32,014 nucleotides of DNA. Source: a virus. The position numbers were made by a program, and so were the translations under genes. Of the stretch, positions 6,462 to 28,514 are shown piece by piece. The stretch lies in IMG/VR virus record IMGVR_UViG_3300037247_000327, positions 1 through 32,014 of that record. One strand, written 5' to 3'. Within the stretch, counting starts at the first letter, position 1. Each line of letters opens with the position of its first letter. The notes under the pieces were generated by a model. That model saw nothing but the letters and a program-made list of their open reading frames with translations. It searched no databases and was not told the origin of the DNA.

Positions 6462-6645
6462 CGTTGTTCTCCTCGGATAATTCTTGGGCGAGCCATCCAT
6501 AACCCAATCTTCCTCCATCAAGTTGCACTCCGTATTCCGTTGGTGACCCATCCTTAAAGGTTTGCACCTGCGTTACAGTTCCGGTGTAGGGCTTCAGATA
6601 CTCGGCGTTCAGCTTTACCCGATCACCAACCTTATAGCGAGTCAT
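6454..6645 (-). CDS. Small KOW/SH3-like protein, 63 aa
   Basis: Starts at ATG 6645 behind CCGAGGAGAACAACG, inside the end of the upstream gene. The sequence opens MTRYKVGDRVKLN and continues YTGTVTQVQTF, a five-strand SH3-barrel or KOW-like pattern seen in small nucleic-acid- or protein-binding domains. It ends LSEENNDE, the junction cassette that supplies the next gene's ribosome binding site. No catalytic residues are seen. It belongs to the accessory block 6243-7260 inside the head operon. Confidence 0.75.
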   Translation of the reverse strand: MTRYKVGDRVKLNAEYLKPYTGTVTQVQTFKDGSPTEYGVQLDGGRLGYGWLAQELSEENNDE

Positions 6646-7000
6646 CGTTGTTCTCCTCGGTGAGAGCGCAACAAGCATCCGTGTCGTCATGGCACAAGGC
6701 GCAGTACGGGTCTATCTGTTCGCATGGATGATTCCCGTCCAAAATTGGTGCGGTGTTTTCCTTGGTGAGAGCATCCAACAGGGCAGCCAATCTAGGCGTT
6801 ACAAAGCACTCCCGTTTTGCTATGGCATCGGTTGCGTTCCATGCGTCTGTGATGGCCTCCAGACGGATATCAGGAACCAGCACGCCAGCGAACTTCAGGT
6901 CCGATAGGAAGTCGTCATGTATCTCAACAGCGATAGTGGGGGGCGGTCCCATGTCCCGTGTGTGTTCGGAGCTGATTCGCCAGCCTGGTTCAACTGTCAT
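6632..7000 (-). CDS. MTVEP/LLDALTEEN-family small protein, 122 aa (late-operon copy)
   Basis: Starts at ATG 7000 with GAGGAGGACCG directly upstream and an ATGA overlap. Three segments match genes on the other strand: the N-terminus MTVEPGWRI, the core IRLEAITDAWNAT (residues 45-57), and RLAALLDALTKEN (about 70-82). Unlike its relatives, it continues past that end with a Cys/His segment (NHPCEQIDPYCALCHDDTDACC) and a second partial cassette, ALTEENNDDS. This looks like a fusion of the family end with a small metal-binding piece. Function is unknown. The same family occurs at 13815, 20972 and 21666 in the early operon. Confidence 0.75.
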   Translation of the reverse strand: MTVEPGWRISSEHTRDMGPPPTIAVEIHDDFLSDLKFAGVLVPDIRLEAITDAWNATDAIAKRECFVTPRLAALLDALTKENTAPILDGNHPCEQIDPYCALCHDDTDACCALTEENNDDSL

Positions 7001-13651: not shown

Positions 13652-13818
13652 GAACCGTCATCCGTGGCACCGAACACGCTATTGAACCGTCCGACGACTA
13701 CCTCTGCGACTTGTGCGAAGACAAGCCTACGACACGGGAAGGCATCGAATACCCCGAAACGTACAACACACCGGCGGAGTTGTTGGCTGTGTGTGACGAA
13801 TGTGCAGGCACACGATGA
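13648..13818 (+). CDS. Small zinc-ribbon protein, 56 aa
   Basis: The ATG at 13648 overlaps the previous stop in an ATGA and the gene ends in an ATGA with the next. The protein has CDLCED near residue 19 and CDEC near residue 50, two Cys pairs as in treble-clef or zinc-ribbon proteins. No ribosome binding site is obvious, so translation is probably coupled. Function unknown. Confidence 0.65.
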   Translation: MRTVIRGTEHAIEPSDDYLCDLCEDKPTTREGIEYPETYNTPAELLAVCDECAGTR

Positions 13819-14072
13819 CAGTTGAACCAAGCTACCGAATCGACAAAGAGCAGGATTGCGTCGAATGCGATGTTGCGCTTAGTCGACTACAGAATCACCA
13901 TGTTCGTCTGATCCCTGATTCCCGTCTGCAGGCCATCGCAGACGCACCAAGATGCGAACACGACATGATCGATCGGCATATCACACATGTCGAGGCGGCC
14001 GTAACCAAATGGTGTGAGGGCGCTCCCGAGTTGCGTGACTTGTTGGATGCTCTCACCGAGGAGGAACGATGA
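13815..14072 (+). CDS. MTVEP/LLDALTEEN-family small protein, 85 aa
   Basis: The gene opens MTVEPSYRI, shares PDSRLQAIADA (about residues 34-44) and ends ELRDLLDALTEEER. The first 29 bases from the G before the ATG are identical to those at 20971, and the stretch around 13915-13946 is nearly identical to 21784-21815. A CVEC pair follows the N-terminus. Its start overlaps the upstream gene (ATGA) and its final GAGGAGG codons form the ribosome binding site of the next gene. Member of the mosaic paralog family; function unknown. Confidence 0.75.
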   Translation: MTVEPSYRIDKEQDCVECDVALSRLQNHHVRLIPDSRLQAIADAPRCEHDMIDRHITHVEAAVTKWCEGAPELRDLLDALTEEER

Positions 14073-16099: not shown

Positions 16100-16738
16100 A
16101 TGACAGAGACTATCCACCAATCCATTCTGAAAGTGTCGGCAGCGATCGGTGCCATCGGGAAGGACAAGCGAGCAGACATCAAGACGCAGTCCGGCCAGAA
16201 CTTCTCATACCAGTTTCGTGGCATCGACGATGTGCTTGATGCGCTGCATCCGGCACTCATCGAATGTGGAGTCACGATCACACCCCAGGTGCAGGCTGTA
16301 CTGCCTATACAAGACGGAGTGCTGCTCACCATCGATTATCTGATCGGAAACGTTGCTGGTGAGACGATCGTCGCGACGTTTGTCGGTGAAGGTAGGGATC
16401 GTGGCGACAAGGCTGCTCAGAAGGCACAGTCGAATGCGTACAAGTACATGGCGTTTCAAACGTTCTGCATCCCTGTCGATGTGGCTGACAGTGACAACAA
16501 CCAGTATGAGCAGCCTGAGGACAAACCGCCTTCGTTGGCTGAGAAGCGGATGAAGAAGATCAAAGACGCAGCATGGATACACACGACTGGCACCGAAGAG
16601 GACCGGATTGCAGAGACGAAGAAGATCGTTGCTCAGGTCATCGCGTCGTATGGTGGGGAGCCGAGGAATCAGACGGATGTGGATGCGATCATATCCAACA
16701 TCGAAGAGATGTTCAACGAGGAGAACGACGATGGGTGA
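16100..16738 (+). CDS. erf: ERF-family single-strand annealing protein, 212 aa
   Basis: Promotes annealing of complementary single strands in phage recombination and genome circularisation. The family signature is present: an N-terminal helix (SILKVSAAIGAIGK), FSYQFRGIDDVLDALHPALIECGVTI (residues 35-60), strands around LLTIDY, then GRDRGDKAAQKAQSNAYKYM and FQTFCIPVD (about 98-127). The C-terminal third is a charged helical tail, probably for SSB or partner contact. It has a strong RBS (CAACAGGAGGAACC). It ends EENDDG, a junction cassette covering the next start. No accompanying exonuclease is seen in the window. Confidence 0.88.
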   Translation: MTETIHQSILKVSAAIGAIGKDKRADIKTQSGQNFSYQFRGIDDVLDALHPALIECGVTITPQVQAVLPIQDGVLLTIDYLIGNVAGETIVATFVGEGRDRGDKAAQKAQSNAYKYMAFQTFCIPVDVADSDNNQYEQPEDKPPSLAEKRMKKIKDAAWIHTTGTEEDRIAETKKIVAQVIASYGGEPRNQTDVDAIISNIEEMFNEENDDG

Positions 16739-17671: not shown

Positions 17672-18342
17672 GGATTCTCGATTTGTTCTGCGGTGCCGGC
17701 GGTGCAGCGATGGGCTATCATCAGGCGCTGCCTTCGGCGCAGATAGTCGGGATTGACAACCAGGCTCAACCCAACTACCCATTCGAATTCATACAGGCCG
17801 ACGCGCTCACTCCTCCCGTCGATCTTTCAAGCTTCGATCTGATTCATGCGTCGCCGCCATGCCAGGCGTATTCGATCGCCGGTCGAGCGTTCCCGGTACT
17901 CCGCGACGGACGCTACCCAGATCTCATCCCAGCCGTCCGTAACCTCATCGGACATCTCCCGCACGTCATCGAGAACGTCCCCGGCGCTCCACTAATTGAA
18001 CCCGCGATTCTGTGCGGATCCATGTTCGGACTCTCCGCGTACGATCCCGATATGGGCAGGGTGATGCACCTCCGCCGTCATCGATTGTTTGAAATGTCGT
18101 TCCCGATTCTGACACCACCCGACACATGCGCCCTGCATCGTGGAAGCATCGCGGGCGTCTACGGTGGCGGCGGCAACGACAGGAAACGCACTCTCCGCGA
18201 CGGACGGACACAACGCGGCGGGTACACACCGAAGGCTGATGTGCGTCGTGCGCTGATGGGGATGGCGTGGGTGACGATGAAAGAAGTGAACGAGGCTATC
18301 CCACCGGCATATACCCGTTTCATCGGTGGCTTCTTGTCATGA
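17668..18342 (+). CDS. C5-cytosine DNA methyltransferase, 224 aa
   Basis: Methylates cytosine at C5 using SAM. Motif I is LDLFCGAGGAAMGYH (residues 4-18), motif IV SPPCQAYS has the catalytic Cys65, motif VI is ENV at 102-104, RRHRLFE matches motif VIII, and EAIPPAYTRFIGGF at the end matches motifs IX-X. It is short for the family, leaving a small target-recognition region (about 145-190, Gly/Arg-rich), as in other compact phage enzymes. The start is the ATG overlapping the upstream stop; earlier in-frame ATGs lie in the upstream gene. It overlaps an HNH nuclease gene directly downstream. Confidence 0.92.
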   Translation: MRILDLFCGAGGAAMGYHQALPSAQIVGIDNQAQPNYPFEFIQADALTPPVDLSSFDLIHASPPCQAYSIAGRAFPVLRDGRYPDLIPAVRNLIGHLPHVIENVPGAPLIEPAILCGSMFGLSAYDPDMGRVMHLRRHRLFEMSFPILTPPDTCALHRGSIAGVYGGGGNDRKRTLRDGRTQRGGYTPKADVRRALMGMAWVTMKEVNEAIPPAYTRFIGGFLS

Positions 18343-18608
18343 GTATCCGTTCCGTGTTGCGTGCCGAGGCAATCATCCGAGCCGACTACCGCTGCGAATG
18401 GCCGAGCTGCGACATGCCGGCATCACCTACACGGGGCCCGTTGGAGATGTCTCACATCATCCCGTTGGGTTCTGGCGGCGAGGACACGTTGGAGAATGTG
18501 TGGATGCTGGATCGATTTCACCACGACTTGTACGACGGTCGTTCCCCGTTCAAGCGTCGCGAGCTCCGTCTGTTGGTGATGGAGTTGATGAGGCTGCGTC
18601 GTGGGTGA
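18339..18608 (+). CDS. HNH endonuclease, 89 aa
   Basis: ATG 18339 overlaps the methyltransferase stop. The fold is a minimal HNH: RCEWPSCDMP (first Cys pair, residues 18-27), then LEMSHIIPLGSGGEDTLENVWMLDRFHHDLYDG with His (SHIIP), Asn (ENVW) and His (FHHDLYD) in order. These are the expected His-Asn-His metal and catalytic residues. A helical C-terminus follows. Tight coupling to a cytosine methyltransferase raises the possibility of a small restriction-modification pair. Alternatives are a packaging-associated or homing nuclease. Confidence 0.85.
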   Translation: MSIRSVLRAEAIIRADYRCEWPSCDMPASPTRGPLEMSHIIPLGSGGEDTLENVWMLDRFHHDLYDGRSPFKRRELRLLVMELMRLRRG

Positions 18609-18695: not shown

Positions 18696-19169
18696 ATGAA
18701 ACGAACCACCGCCAACCGGCTCCCCATAGAGATCACTGATACACTCACTCAGCGAATTAGCTCGCGGCTCTCCCCTCCTACAAATGCGGGATGTCTCCTT
18801 TGGCTTGGATCAAGACTTCCAGCGGGATATGGCCGGATCAGTGTCAAAATTGATGGGCAGTACCACAACATCTATACGCATCGATATGTAGCAACTGCAA
18901 CGTACGGCCCGATCCCAGATGACATGGTTGTTGATCACCTCTGCCACAACCCACCGTGCTGTGAGCCCACACATCTCGATATCACAACACACACCGAGAA
19001 CTCGGTATATCGATCCAACGGGAAGCATCCGGCGCTGGTTCGGCTTGCGTTGACACATTGCCGTAACGGCCACGAGTACACAGATGCAACCACAGGTAGA
19101 CGTGCCAACGGCAGCAGACGATGTTTGGAATGCAGACGTGAATGGCTACAGCGACAGAACCGATTATGA
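18696..19169 (+). CDS. HNH (homing-type) endonuclease, 157 aa
   Basis: N-terminal CLLWLGSRLPAGYGRISV (residues 29-46) and TH-RYVATATYGPIPDDMVVDHLCHNPPCCEPTHLDITTHTEN (about 67-108) carry the DHLCHNPPCCEPTHL form of HNH found in free-standing phage homing endonucleases. A C-terminal CRNGHEYT ... RRCLECRREW adds a second zinc cluster. It probably makes site-specific nicks or breaks that help the gene spread. Start at ATG 18696 with GGAAG upstream. It is inserted between the C5 methyltransferase/HNH pair and the replication genes, and ends in an ATGA overlap with the initiator. Confidence 0.88.
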   Translation: MKRTTANRLPIEITDTLTQRISSRLSPPTNAGCLLWLGSRLPAGYGRISVKIDGQYHNIYTHRYVATATYGPIPDDMVVDHLCHNPPCCEPTHLDITTHTENSVYRSNGKHPALVRLALTHCRNGHEYTDATTGRRANGSRRCLECRREWLQRQNRL

Positions 19170-19954
19170 GTGTCAAAGTCATGTCAATGGTGTGGGAATC
19201 CGGCCTCCCAAAGAACCAGAAAATGACACTCCTCGCCTATGCGGATCACGCCAACGACGACGGCACTTCCGTATATCCCGGTGAGGACAAGATGACTGAC
19301 AAGACTTCTGATTCTGCTGGCAACGTTCGCCGCGTCACGAAGCTGCTCATCAAGGACGGTTTGTTGATCCAGGTGAAGCGTGGACATCGAGGCCAACGCG
19401 CCGAGTTCCGTATCGAACTCGAACGGTTAGCCGCGCATATTGCGCGCCATTCTGAAGCGTTGAAAGGCGCGCGTGACGGGAAGGAAAGGCGCGCAGAATC
19501 GGGAGATAGGCGCGCGTCACAGTCAGGAAAGGCGCGCGGTGGGGCCACCCCAAACCATCAAGAGCCATCAGAACCGTCAGAGAACCATCAGTTAGCGCAC
19601 AGCGCGCCAGAGATCCGTGAACTGAACAAAGGTGAGTACCACACGGCGATGAAGAACGCTCTCGTCGTAGCGATGGGCTGGGAAGTCGATGAGATCCCAA
19701 AAGCACAGTGGGGCCGCATCGAAGCCGCTGCGAAGATGCTCACCGAGATCATGGCGCATCCTGACGAAGTGTGGCGCCGGGCCCAGGTGTATCGGGTGAA
19801 TATGGCTGGTGCGACGATGACACCGAACGCTATCGCCGTGAATTGGGCAGACCTTGCCACACCACGCGAACCGATATCGGCCAGACAGGTACGTCGGGCA
19901 GCGGTACGCGCAAGCTCTCGGGCTGCGATTGCTGCATTGAAGGAGTCCGAATGA
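19166..19954 (+). CDS. Replication initiator with N-terminal helix-turn-helix, 262 aa
   Basis: Residues 1-85 (MSVKVMSMVWESGLPKNQKM, YADHANDDGTSVYPGEDKMT, NVRRVTKLLIKDGLLIQV) form the winged-HTH typical of phage replication-organiser proteins. Residues 100-145 are a polar linker. From about 155 a helical domain follows (YHTAMKNALVVAMGW...), as in DnaD/lambda-O-like initiators. The DNA encoding the linker carries regularly spaced iterons. I chose ATG 19166 (ATGA overlap); 19142 is an in-frame alternative. It is followed by a probable helicase loader. Confidence 0.78.
   Translation: MSVKVMSMVWESGLPKNQKMTLLAYADHANDDGTSVYPGEDKMTDKTSDSAGNVRRVTKLLIKDGLLIQVKRGHRGQRAEFRIELERLAAHIARHSEALKGARDGKERRAESGDRRASQSGKARGGATPNHQEPSEPSENHQLAHSAPEIRELNKGEYHTAMKNALVVAMGWEVDEIPKAQWGRIEAAAKMLTEIMAHPDEVWRRAQVYRVNMAGATMTPNAIAVNWADLATPREPISARQVRRAAVRASSRAAIAALKESE
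19465..19537 (+). repeat. Four iterons, candidate replication origin
   Basis: AGGCGCGC occurs at 19465, 19487, 19508 and 19530, with surrounding consensus GAAAGGCGCGCG. Spacing is 22, 21 and 22 bases, two helical turns, so all copies face the same side of the helix. The copies fall in all three codon phases of the initiator gene, which argues for DNA-level rather than protein-level selection. Inverted GCGCGCC copies flank them at 19442 and 19602. Lambda's origin has the same arrangement inside gene O. Confidence 0.72.
19553..19591 (+). repeat. Short direct repeats next to the iterons
   Basis: GARCCRTCAG-like copies lie at 19562, 19571 and 19582, preceded by a weaker one at 19553. They encode a Glu/Pro/Ser/His-rich part of the linker. 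This stretch is less GC-rich than the iterons and could be the unwinding side of an origin; it could equally be linker low complexity. Confidence 0.45.
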
Positions 19955-20382
19955 ACGCATCCGATTGGGACGACATTGTCGGATTCGTGTCGAAACGGTA
20001 CCCCGACAACCAGTACACCTGTGAAGACACGATTGTCATGTTTGAGGATTTGAAAGATTTCGATGCGTCTGACGTGTGGTCAGCGATGAACCATTACCAC
20101 GAGGAGGGCCACAGCTTCCCACCGAACGCGTCGCTGCTGCTATCGAGGGCTATCGACGAGCGCCACAAGTCAGCGAGAGAGGACATGTACCGAGGCACAC
20201 CAGAGGCGAGAGGGAAACCGCTGCCGCAGCCAGAACCGATCGAATGGTCCGAATATGTTGTGAAACGGTTCGGTGAGAAGCTGTCATGGAACGACGCTAT
20301 TGCACGGATACATGCGCAGATGAGGCCGTGCAACACGAAGACATGCGATTTGCATTACCCAATGAAAGTAGGAGCAGAATGA
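19951..20382 (+). CDS. Probable helicase-loader-like replication protein, 143 aa
   Basis: Starts at ATG 19951 after AAGGAGTCCGA, overlapping the initiator stop. The N-terminal plan (WDDIVGFVSKRYPDNQYTCE, FEDLKDFDASDVWSAMNHYH, then FPPNASLL near residues 55-62) resembles phage helicase loaders and related G39P/lambda-P-type domains. A Pro-rich linker and a small C-terminal part with a CNTKTC pair follow. Its place directly after the initiator is the usual location. No helicase is seen in the window, so a host helicase would be the partner. The family call is by pattern and context. Confidence 0.55.
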   Translation: MNASDWDDIVGFVSKRYPDNQYTCEDTIVMFEDLKDFDASDVWSAMNHYHEEGHSFPPNASLLLSRAIDERHKSAREDMYRGTPEARGKPLPQPEPIEWSEYVVKRFGEKLSWNDAIARIHAQMRPCNTKTCDLHYPMKVGAE

Positions 20383-20830: not shown

Positions 20831-20982
20831 CCATCAATTGGTCGATCGATGTCGGCTACGTTGCCCCCATCCTCGTATCGTTCATCGTCGTCCCGTTGTT
20901 TGTCGCCGGATGTTGGATACTGCGACTGTCAGGGTTGAGGAACAGGGAGCAGGAACGTTGGGAGAACAACGATGACAGTTGA
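20827..20982 (+). CDS. Small membrane protein, 51 aa
   Basis: ATG 20827 overlaps the upstream stop. One hydrophobic span, residues 11-33 (VAPILVSFIVVPLFVAGCWIL), then a charged tail ending ENNDDS. The final codons GAGAACAACGATGAC are the junction cassette containing the next gene's start. Function unknown. Confidence 0.6.
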   Translation: MTINWSIDVGYVAPILVSFIVVPLFVAGCWILRLSGLRNREQERWENNDDS

Positions 20983-21349
20983 ACCAAGCTACCGAATCGT
21001 TGAGGATGACCCCGAGTTTGGGCAGTACCGTGACCTGACAGAGAACAAACATCAACCGTTACCTGATGGTGTGATGCGATGGTATTCCAGTCAGCACCAC
21101 AGTTACGCCACACCTGATGGCTACCTGGTTCCTGTCAGGCCTGAGACTGAAAACGATTGCGCTAGGGGTTGCGCGACTCATGCGATATGCCGTTTGCAGG
21201 CCATCGCAAACGCATGGAACAGCGCCACAGAGAATAGAGCCAATAGGTATGCGGACGGTCAGATGCTTGGTTGGCGTTTCTGTCTCCGCAATGGGTGGCC
21301 TGAGTTGGCTGTCCTGTTGGATGCTCTCACCGAGGATAACAACGAATGA
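20972..21349 (+). CDS. MTVEP/LLDALTEEN-family small protein, 125 aa
   Basis: Longest early-operon member of the mosaic family: MTVEPSYRI start, ICRLQAIANAWNSAT core (about residues 70-84) and ELAVLLDALTEDNNE end. Between start and core lies an insert with a His/Tyr/Pro-rich segment (HHSYATPDGYLVPVRPET) and Cys pairs (CARGCATHAIC) not found in the others. The end again doubles as the next ribosome binding site and overlaps the next ATG. Function unknown. Confidence 0.75.
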   Translation: MTVEPSYRIVEDDPEFGQYRDLTENKHQPLPDGVMRWYSSQHHSYATPDGYLVPVRPETENDCARGCATHAICRLQAIANAWNSATENRANRYADGQMLGWRFCLRNGWPELAVLLDALTEDNNE

Positions 21350-21669
21350 TCGCTGCCGTCATCATCGCCGCCCTACTGATTCTGTTGGCTGCTGCGGTCG
21401 CCGTCGCATACCAGCAGGCCGATGTGATTCGTGCTTTGAAGGCTCATGTTGTCCGGTTGGAGGAAGCCGTCACTAATGCCCACGAGGGTGACGACAGACG
21501 GGTGTGGGGGCTACGCCCTGATGCGGTGAATCCGATGATTCAACGTGGACGGCCAGATGTGTCACCGACGCGACAAGCAACGATACCTCCTGGTGAAGTG
21601 GTACGGGTTGGTGAAATGGATGTGTGGGACGGGGATGGGTATATGTCAGAGAGAGGTGAGCAACCATGA
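21346..21669 (+). CDS. Membrane-anchored protein, 107 aa
   Basis: ATG 21346 overlaps the upstream stop. Residues 2-22 are strongly hydrophobic (IAAVIIAALLILLAAAVAVAY), followed by a short amphipathic helix (VIRALKAHVVRLEEAV) and a polar domain with no cysteines. Probably one N-terminal membrane anchor. It ends SERGEQP, the third copy of the GEQP junction, leading into the MSD start of the next gene. Confidence 0.65.
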   Translation: MIAAVIIAALLILLAAAVAVAYQQADVIRALKAHVVRLEEAVTNAHEGDDRRVWGLRPDAVNPMIQRGRPDVSPTRQATIPPGEVVRVGEMDVWDGDGYMSERGEQP

Positions 21670-21920
21670 GTGACCAGTACCGAGAGTCCGAGCATTGCGA
21701 CAAGAACCCATATGACGGCAATCACGTCGCAACCTTTGATTCCGATTGCAAGAACTGCGGTATGGAGCAGATGTTCGTTGAACCTGATTCCCGTCTGCAG
21801 GCCATCGCAGACGCATGGGAGGCTTGCAACGAATATCAAAGAAGGGACATCTACGGCTATTGGCCTGAGTTCTCTGTCCTGTTGGATGCTCTCACCGAGG
21901 AGAATGATGATGAAACGTGA
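21666..21920 (+). CDS. LLDALTEEN-family small protein, 84 aa
   Basis: A chimera of the family. The start is MSDQYRESEHCDKNP (the GEQP/MSD cassette form) with a CKNCG metal-type pair. It then joins PDSRLQAIADAWEACNE (residues 42-58) and ends FSVLLDALTEENDDET like the MTVEP members. The core DNA around 21784-21815 nearly equals that at 13915-13946. Function unknown. It gives the ribosome binding site for the next gene. Confidence 0.72.
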   Translation: MSDQYRESEHCDKNPYDGNHVATFDSDCKNCGMEQMFVEPDSRLQAIADAWEACNEYQRRDIYGYWPEFSVLLDALTEENDDET

Positions 21921-27000: not shown

Positions 27001-28514
27001 ATCGTCAACGACTCAGAAGCGCGCCACGCATTCCCTGCCGAATCCAACGATGCGGTGAAGTCTGCTTTCAACCACAGCAACGTGGCGCGTGCAAGGTCGC
27101 CTGCTTCCCCAACGTGGTCTGTCTGCGCATCTGCCAACAGTTGAAGCATGATGTCACCGATAGTTGCTGGTGCCTGCCCCGTGTAGAAATCTGCGGTATC
27201 GACATAGATGTTGCTCGCCGGTGCTCCCGTCTCGTCATAGCGGAGTTCAAGTTCAGTGGTTGTCGTCGTCGCTATCCCGGTCGCTGTTAGCAGGGTCCAT
27301 GTCGCTGTCGGCACCGACACTTGCACCGACGCGACGTTCTGCGTATTCGGGTTCACACCGGGGATGCGGAGCACGATACGGAAATCCTTGTTAGCGCCCT
27401 CGGTGTGATACACCTTTATTTCGCCGGTGACTTCCTGACCGGGAACAGTGGCTTGGGACAGGAACAGCGTGTCGTTGCCAGCGACACCAGAGTTCGGATG
27501 CCACGCCAAAGAGTGCGACCCTGAATCCACAGGCGGTGCAGGCACCGTAGTTGTCGGTACGACAGCGAACACGTCGACGTTGCCACGGATATCCCAGTCT
27601 TCGGTCCCGACACCGAACCCTTCGGCCCGAACCTTGTCCAACCGGAACGTGTTGCCATCTGTCTGTGACAGTACCGAGATGCCTCCCGGTCCGGCGTCGG
27701 CGATGAACGTGACTGTCACTGTCTGATATGCGTCGTTTCCTACAGCGTCAGCGTACGCGGCACCGTTGAACAGGCCCCCGACCGATACCGATTTGGCCGG
27801 TGTGACTTCCATGCGTGTCGTGTCGCCGGTAGCTACGAACAGGCGACACGACACGATATACGTCTCACCCTCAACTAGCGGCTTCGTCCAATCTTGGAAC
27901 ACGCCCTCACCGATGTCGGCGGTGATGTTGAAATACCAATCCCCGTCGTCGGCATCACCGGCGTCCTCGATCGCTTCGAACGTTTCGGGTGCGATAGCTT
28001 CCGAACGTGTCCCGGTGGTGGGCCACCCGTTCGTTGTACCGTCCTCAGCACCAGGGTTGATCAGCGAATACGGAATCTCTTCGAACCCTTGGTTCTGCGT
28101 GTTGAGCAACGATTCAAAACCCCACGTCCAATTCGGATCAACAGACGGGATCTCAGGCCAGTCGTGCGGATACACGACCGCCCACTCCAGGGCGTCCTCA
28201 ATTGACGGTGCAGTGAGTTGAACGATGTTGCCTGCGTCTCTGCGTGGCGTCGAGGTGCGACGTAACACATATTCGGCTTTGATCTGCGGGTCACCTGACC
28301 GGTCGGTTTGTATCACTCGCAGCAAAGAACCCACATCGTTGGCCGGATCCAAGATTTCGTCGAGCCGCCCCCAATCCTCCGGGATAGAAACGTTGATTCG
28401 TCCTACCCCTGACGCCGGTTGGGTAAACTCCACCTGCCCTGGGACGTCCATGACACGTCGTTGGAACGGTGACGCACCAGGAATCTCCCACGCCTCCACA
28501 GACCATTTACTCAT
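24066..28514 (-). CDS. Tail hub / tailspike fusion protein, 1482 aa
   Basis: Very large minor tail protein. Residues 1-150 resemble a tail hub N-terminus (MSKWSVEAWEIPGASPFQRR, LRVIQTDRSGD). Residues 153-300 (NPGAEDGTTNGW ... RLDKVRAEG) and about 336-440 are two jelly-roll, carbohydrate-binding-like inserts. Hub sequence resumes to about 740. Residues 755-1070 are a right-handed beta-helix (CSGTDDDVEIQAAIDAAEAA, then GCVLRGQG and short Cys/Gly turn repeats) of pectate-lyase type. The C-terminal 400 residues are fibre-like. It probably recognises or degrades a surface glycan. Starts by ATGA overlap with the Dit-like gene. Confidence 0.85.
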   Translation of the reverse strand: MSKWSVEAWEIPGASPFQRRVMDVPGQVEFTQPASGVGRINVSIPEDWGRLDEILDPANDVGSLLRVIQTDRSGDPQIKAEYVLRRTSTPRRDAGNIVQLTAPSIEDALEWAVVYPHDWPEIPSVDPNWTWGFESLLNTQNQGFEEIPYSLINPGAEDGTTNGWPTTGTRSEAIAPETFEAIEDAGDADDGDWYFNITADIGEGVFQDWTKPLVEGETYIVSCRLFVATGDTTRMEVTPAKSVSVGGLFNGAAYADAVGNDAYQTVTVTFIADAGPGGISVLSQTDGNTFRLDKVRAEGFGVGTEDWDIRGNVDVFAVVPTTTVPAPPVDSGSHSLAWHPNSGVAGNDTLFLSQATVPGQEVTGEIKVYHTEGANKDFRIVLRIPGVNPNTQNVASVQVSVPTATWTLLTATGIATTTTTELELRYDETGAPASNIYVDTADFYTGQAPATIGDIMLQLLADAQTDHVGEAGDLARATLLWLKADFTASLDSAGNAWRASESLTIVRGKTYGKVLSDDFAKLGYEYRVKPNPSYPGDSESHILQVFNPADLTTRVGGASNDLVGSVGFSGGSVVKGPVVKTPKSRTVTLAEGDALQFAVAKDAAGVTAWGARELYLAESGILDSSSLAQVAATALTERGAAITATSLTIVDDDLFSPFIDFEPGDWVRGELPPDLARGNHRVVAVTGVIAEGNSVFDIDVGAHVFVGASGMNEAVTRLLSKFDGIEAPIAAAAVADSFPDVFTGPIEVTYLVAASDARAEIRALADFVCSGTDDDVEIQAAIDAAEAATAGVGRVVLTEGAFACTSPVLVGISGGCVLRGQGIDVTVLTFTMPGGSGTGALRLDSATYAAAEELSVIVVDAGSANYAVRHNASGGGHLTNVSAKMEDSTRFGAFSISGTDITCKGLRVPNGNQGYGIETSGAHLDLDDCIVAGTSIVGGAVQGEAFYGSSGGPVTIKGCKAKSTVDGDGFVTFGFNYIYISCVSETLSGHGFLIGGSDNIVIGCVSRDSNPDGINIEGDRCVIVGNRIQDATDDGIEITASANETMLGSNLITGSGGSDIVDGGTNTETTDWLANPFFNGTFLETQSVTISEAGGTVTMSLEKSGGGELTMRFSDGQTNLDTDPALTIALTTGSDAAPTTNYIYILQSDKILTKSTSGWPAAEHIKVAFFFVPTAVFVAANGVVIHQDWTDHAAGTDDQGHLTHIVEHIRSSPAVWNKGLEGAGTSDYLTLAGTTVDLKIAAGVVYQLHKHAVPAFDTSGGDVVLVKNWFGDPYHDITNLYDIVDDSTGTTIPNNRYFNIVIWGVANQTGGYSPTIINLPSDVYTSQAAAEADLSGFDDFTMPRQFVQDSSTGFLICRLTVQKKAAAWEYKSTTDLRGTTPQSAAGGAAAVSTTFLDNQWEVVNVDDITKAVDLDVSGVLTGTTRTWTVPDLDGTVTIEGVVPVKTDTGDPGSPVEGQIYVNTFDNKIRVFADAAWRDLATW

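Follow-up and report, generated by a model that had tools for sequence, protein, structure and literature searches.

Where on this phage genome does replication begin, and does the origin lie inside the gene for the initiator protein itself? The window analyzed here, meaning the whole stretch of DNA under study, is a virus record of 32,014 bases, in which a sequence-only reading had proposed a lambda-O-like intragenic origin. That proposal is supported, at the level of sequence, by the layout of related genes and by the adjacent loader-like gene. We consider it very probable that the segment summarized in Table 1 is the replication origin of the phage, residing inside its own initiator gene, in the DNA that encodes a disordered linker, and built from lineage-specific iterons together with an array of GAACCRTCA units.

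Table 1. Coordinates of the candidate origin and its two flanking genes, numbered from the first base of the window.
Feature	Position	Strand	Basis or remark
Replication initiator gene, 262 aa	19166..19954	+	PHROG 391, HTH_36, AlphaFold2 model
Inverted iteron-like GCGCGCC	19442..19448	-	23 bp 5′ of iteron 1
Iteron 1, AGGCGCGC	19465..19472	+	window count
Iteron 2, AGGCGCGC	19487..19494	+	window count
Iteron 3, AGGCGCGC	19508..19515	+	window count
Iteron 4, AGGCGCGC	19530..19537	+	window count
GAACCRTCA array, copies 19552, 19562, 19571, 19582	19552..19590	+	candidate opening/helicase-loading element
Inverted iteron-like GCGCGCC	19602..19608	-	3′ of array
Helicase-loader-like gene	19951..20382	+	PHROG 2289; ATGA overlap with initiator stop codon

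The initiator gene likely starts at ATG 19166, which forms an ATGA overlap with the upstream gene, rather than at ATG 19142 of the listed open reading frame. Its product matches PHROG 391, “replication initiation O-like,” over residues 1-185 (profile match, E 2.9e-11), and its best Pfam match is HTH_36 (E 3e-4; 20.8 bits against a curated cut-off of 25), a domain matched at E<=0.01 by all 35 aligned relatives. The N-terminal domain of lambda O is absent among the listed Pfam matches of the initiator and its relatives; RepA_N is likewise absent among the Pfam matches, its similarity in fold being weak (E 4e-3 at best), and a single-protein search of viral contigs returned no homologue. AlphaFold2 models a confident winged helix over the first ~100 residues, a stretch of low confidence to ~150 and then a helical C-terminal part of moderate confidence. 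The iterons and the array correspond to about codons 99-141, which is the predicted disordered linker. Directly 5′ of the initiator, and overlapping its start, lies an HNH_3 endonuclease gene (18696-19169, E 1e-13), and a second HNH-like gene is found at 18327-18605.

Counted on both strands of the whole 32 kb window, AGGCGCGC occurs exactly four times, all inside 73 bp, with spacings of 22, 21, and 22 bp and in codon phases 2, 0, 0, and 1, so that all three phases are used. Nowhere else does the window contain a chain of even three identical 8-mers at 20-24 bp, and GCGCGCC has a single further copy there, at 27019. The main observations of the sequence-only reading are thus borne out: the four regularly spaced iterons are real, with the spacing that it had described, as are the inverted GCGCGCC copies on either side. 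The repeats do lie in the linker-coding part of the gene, judging by the model, and the neighboring gene does resemble a helicase loader, weakly by profile (PHROG 2289, E 7e-4) and with a counterpart of 35% protein identity in the nearest relative.

The same layout recurs in related initiators. Among the HTH initiators found first, every gene (16/16) has a significant repeat within the stretch that codes for the linker, the array itself being the top-scoring repeat in some Arthrobacter genes, and significant iterons were detected in 44 of the 48 genes of a sample collected by protein only. After pooling and reduction to <70% identity, 73 of 75 non-redundant HTH initiator genes carry clustered significant repeats, whose commonest spacings are 22, 17, 21, 18, and 23 bp, 22 being the most frequent. 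The DNA 5′ of the array has autocorrelation maxima at lags of 22 and 44, and no lag-22 peak appears in control segments from the HTH or C-terminal parts; the distance from the last iteron to the array is often 21-23 bp across relatives. Many relatives (e.g., L319, L303, and L349) have two tiers of iterons, the first 16-18 bp apart and the second 21-23 bp and adjoining the array, of which the window has only the second.

The sequences of the iterons differ from group to group. Across 90 initiators, iteron similarity follows HTH identity (rho 0.46), with means of 0.28-0.31 below 40% HTH identity and 0.76 above 75%, and shows no overall trend with C-terminal identity (rho 0.03), where these pairs are not phylogenetically independent and the contrast between the domains serves as an internal control. 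A few pairs have both similar C-terminal domains and similar iterons, as expected of close relatives. The HTH domains closest to that of the window (~41%) are paired with AAAGGGTGCAA, which has AAAGG in common with GAAAGGCGCGC of the window. No other initiator with AGGCGCGC was met among those compared, and a viral-contig scan for the window's own iteron gave GC-rich repeats and no other initiator among the matches listed. This covariation supports a reading of the iterons by the N-terminal HTH domain. It had been suggested that one look at whether the sites survive when the linker changes; across the relatives the layout persists, and the repeat sequences change with the HTH domain but not with the C-terminal one.

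The second component is the array. In the window its GARCCRTCAG copies are irregularly spaced (10, 9, and 11 bp), form the only such array, and begin 22 bp from the start of the last iteron, thereby continuing the iteron spacing; G+C drops only to 0.50 around them. These repeats had been pointed out as following the iterons, and they are present, but their importance was underrated, as they are the part shared across phage lineages. An array is found in 68 of the 75 non-redundant initiator genes, a set partly collected by the array motif itself, and in 41 of 48 genes of the protein-only sample. The spacing has a mode of 11 bp (114 of 159 spacings), and the array forms a local G+C minimum, the mean over its first 30 bp lying 13-19 points below that of the gene in relatives.

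A scan blind to protein content, in which 2.9 million viral contigs were searched for three GAACC-type units at 11 bp, returned 71 contigs, 52 of them with an HTH initiator frame running across the match (E<1e-3). With a looser cut the number becomes 55, of which a few are partial or weak; at 70% identity they form 25 groups. The matches in initiators are on the sense strand and usually 3′ of group-specific iterons. Control scans with a permuted motif and with a 13-bp period yielded two contigs each, one of the 13-bp matches also falling in an HTH initiator. An HTH initiator gene at L484:5954-6023 has an array of 13-bp period (GAACCATCAATTA), a natural variant of the 11-bp form. When genomes were scanned, 18 of 111 loci fell in HTH initiators, in records that include Amycolatopsis, Achromobacter, Diaphorobacter, Sphingomonadaceae, Opitutales, Verrucomicrobiia, Hydrogenedentota, and Roseithermus. 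Because the GAACCNTC triple pattern in bacterial genomes consists mostly of simple 11-bp tandem repeats, the claim for the array rests on the viral contigs and the relatives found by protein. Two or three GAACCGTCC-type units also follow other repeats in L218, L247, L249, L263, L281, L283, and L284, in whose fetched DNA no HTH initiator was found; TTGCGGGGG at 24 bp precedes these units in L218 and L247, and the L247 site lies just 5′ of a capsid-like gene.

Could the array serve a purpose other than opening DNA? It may be thought of as a conserved recombination junction, at which HTH-plus-iteron and C-terminal halves are swapped. The HTH and C-terminal domains indeed vary independently (rho 0.009), the array sits at their boundary, and the phage encodes an ERF-type annealing protein (16100-16735). 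However, such a junction needs neither the 11-bp period, nor the distance to the last iteron that many relatives share, nor the local minimum in G+C, and we regard it as unlikely.

The iterons, for their part, might be operators only, through which the initiator controls the transcription of its own gene while replication starts elsewhere. By fold, the PDB matches of the initiator model are weak, none at E <= 0.001, with RepA_N plasmid initiators and DnaD among them. Winged-helix proteins are commonly repressors, and MarR-type regulators are about as similar to this model as initiators are. Yet operators normally lie in promoters, not in the middle of a gene, and 22-bp repeats that recur at the same linker position in 75 diverse genes, ahead of a low-G+C array and a loader gene, fit origins, which makes this alternative very unlikely in our judgment.

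Still less credible is that the array reflects a protein motif, with EPS/NHQ residues of the linker preserved to contact a protein, and the DNA repeat as their by-product. In one protein alignment the columns holding the E and P of EPS hardly vary, and the window array stands only weakly above the synonymous null (214 of 5,000 shuffles reach it), so that it is weak alone and its weight comes from the relatives. In those relatives, however, the first copy lies in all three codon phases (27/18/23 among 68 genes), to be translated as EPS, NHQ, or RT[IT], and the 11-bp period is no multiple of 3. For the iterons, the claim that a protein repeat does not explain the copies stands, on the use of three codon phases and on nulls in which the protein was held fixed: four copies arose in none of 20,000 draws from phage codon usage and in 1 of 20,000 within-gene codon shuffles, and a chain of four identical copies of any 8-mer at 20-24 bp arose in 1 of 20,000 shuffles. 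GGCGCGC triples do arise by chance in GC-rich contigs, but these synonymous nulls, the uniqueness of the AGGCGCGC cluster in 32 kb, and the equal layout with other sequences in relatives leave a negligible probability that chance or tandem duplication in GC-rich coding DNA produced the pattern. The comparison across relatives indicates that iterons and array are constrained as DNA, not as protein.

The nearest relative, IMGVR_UViG_3300005253_000056 (39,961 bp), is probably complete, because it has a 121-bp terminal repeat. Many structural genes are common to it and the window, with ~72-82% DNA identity over long stretches; no named phage was matched when 14 kb of the window served as a nucleotide query. 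The relative keeps the loader and the gene after it (44%), but in place of the initiator it has a frame resembling the C-terminal domain alone (28% over 120 residues, weak), and HTH domain, iterons, and array are jointly absent. As it replicates without them, this phage group can do without the arrangement. It also keeps the second HNH-like gene, followed directly by the shorter initiator, and has neither the HNH_3 gene nor the HTH-plus-iteron part. Set against this complete relative (L206), ~5 kb are lacking from the window, whose end corresponds to ~13789 and whose start to ~18700 of L206, and the contig is therefore probably incomplete. Small genes on both strands of the window have a common tail like “LQAIADAW...LLDALTEEND” (6632-7000 on the minus strand, 13800-14072, 20972-21349, and 21666-21920), and short DNA stretches matching them recur within the phage and in the nearest relative. 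A long repetitive frame with repeats of ~20 residues occupies 1-1857 on the minus strand, the plus-strand open reading frames listed across it being its antisense, and a similar repetitive protein is encoded by the nearest relative.

Taken together, the most likely reading is an intragenic iteron origin with the array as its strand-opening or helicase-loading element. The iterons sit about two helical turns apart, and initiator molecules would bind them with their N-terminal winged helix, aligned along one face of the DNA. Strand opening may then take place in the array, where G+C has its local minimum and to which the C-terminal domain and the loader from the adjacent gene would bring the host DnaB helicase; both opening and loading are suggested by position and composition, and the order of these steps by analogy with lambda, Stx phages, and pSK41. 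The array would probably do the job of the AT-rich tract of lambda, by means of a sequence common to phage lineages. GC skew had been offered as a check that could refute the origin; when calculated, its sign follows the gene strand and does not mark the initiator site, and we dropped it as evidence in either direction for that reason.

The layout as such is already known from lambda, Stx phages, and pSK41. The family-wide GAACCRTCA array makes the present case a variant of it, and we found no description of the array, or of the intragenic origins of this group, in the open-access literature that was searched. The sequence of the array appears to change little between phages and prophages whose hosts belong to several bacterial phyla, among them actinobacteria, proteobacteria, and verrucomicrobia. 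We tentatively propose, rating it slightly below an even chance, that O-like phage origins carry two codes: private iterons matched to the individual HTH domain, and a common GAACCRTCA with a period of about 11 bp, acting as a sequence-specific opening or helicase-loading element read by something common to these replication systems. If so, the common element would be more than easily melted DNA, and as a conserved element adjoining the iterons it would have a partner of its own. Should this partner be the helicase, its loader, or the initiator bound to exposed single strands, the long-standing question of how DNA is opened by iteron initiators and passed to the helicase would become testable in simple phages. 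The repeats also offer a way to locate, from sequence only, the probable origin in many phages and prophages that have not been cultured, together with the iteron that belongs to each initiator.

Among known systems, the nearest solved relative by profile is the N-terminal domain of DnaD (E 2e-4), which has a similar winged-helix fold; DnaD differs in being a primosome component, for whose N-terminal domain a lack of DNA binding has been reported (PMC7145576). In the pSK41 rep system, the winged-helix N-terminal domain binds four central Rep boxes and the origin DNA codes for a linker (PMC5703833). The window resembles pSK41 in its central repeats within linker-coding DNA, and structures of that family (PDB 4pt7 and 5kbj) are the best, if weak, fold matches. 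The differences are that pSK41 belongs to a plasmid family with its own replication control, that no GAACCRTCA array is mentioned for it in the text consulted, and that the initiator has no sequence-level match to RepA_N. Gene O of lambda and Stx phages carries, midway along its length, iterons as well as an AT-rich tract that is crucial for unwinding (PMC7466680). Common to these phages and the window are an initiator with the origin inside its own gene, four iterons ~20-24 bp apart (39034, 39054, 39078, and 39101 in lambda), a presumed opening region after them, and a helicase-loader gene next. The window differs in its HTH_36-type N-terminal domain, in an iteron sequence unlike that of lambda, and in having the GAACCRTCA array where lambda has the AT-rich tract: no such tract lies beside the window iterons, and the O gene of lambda, with its iterons and AT-rich tract, has no such array. 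A further group are the HTH-type O-like initiators of PHROG 391, for example those in Bordetella phage PHB09, Arthrobacter phages Galaxy and Andrew, and Pseudomonas phage JBD68, which belong to the same protein family and have the linker repeat layout of the window, each HTH group with an iteron of its own.
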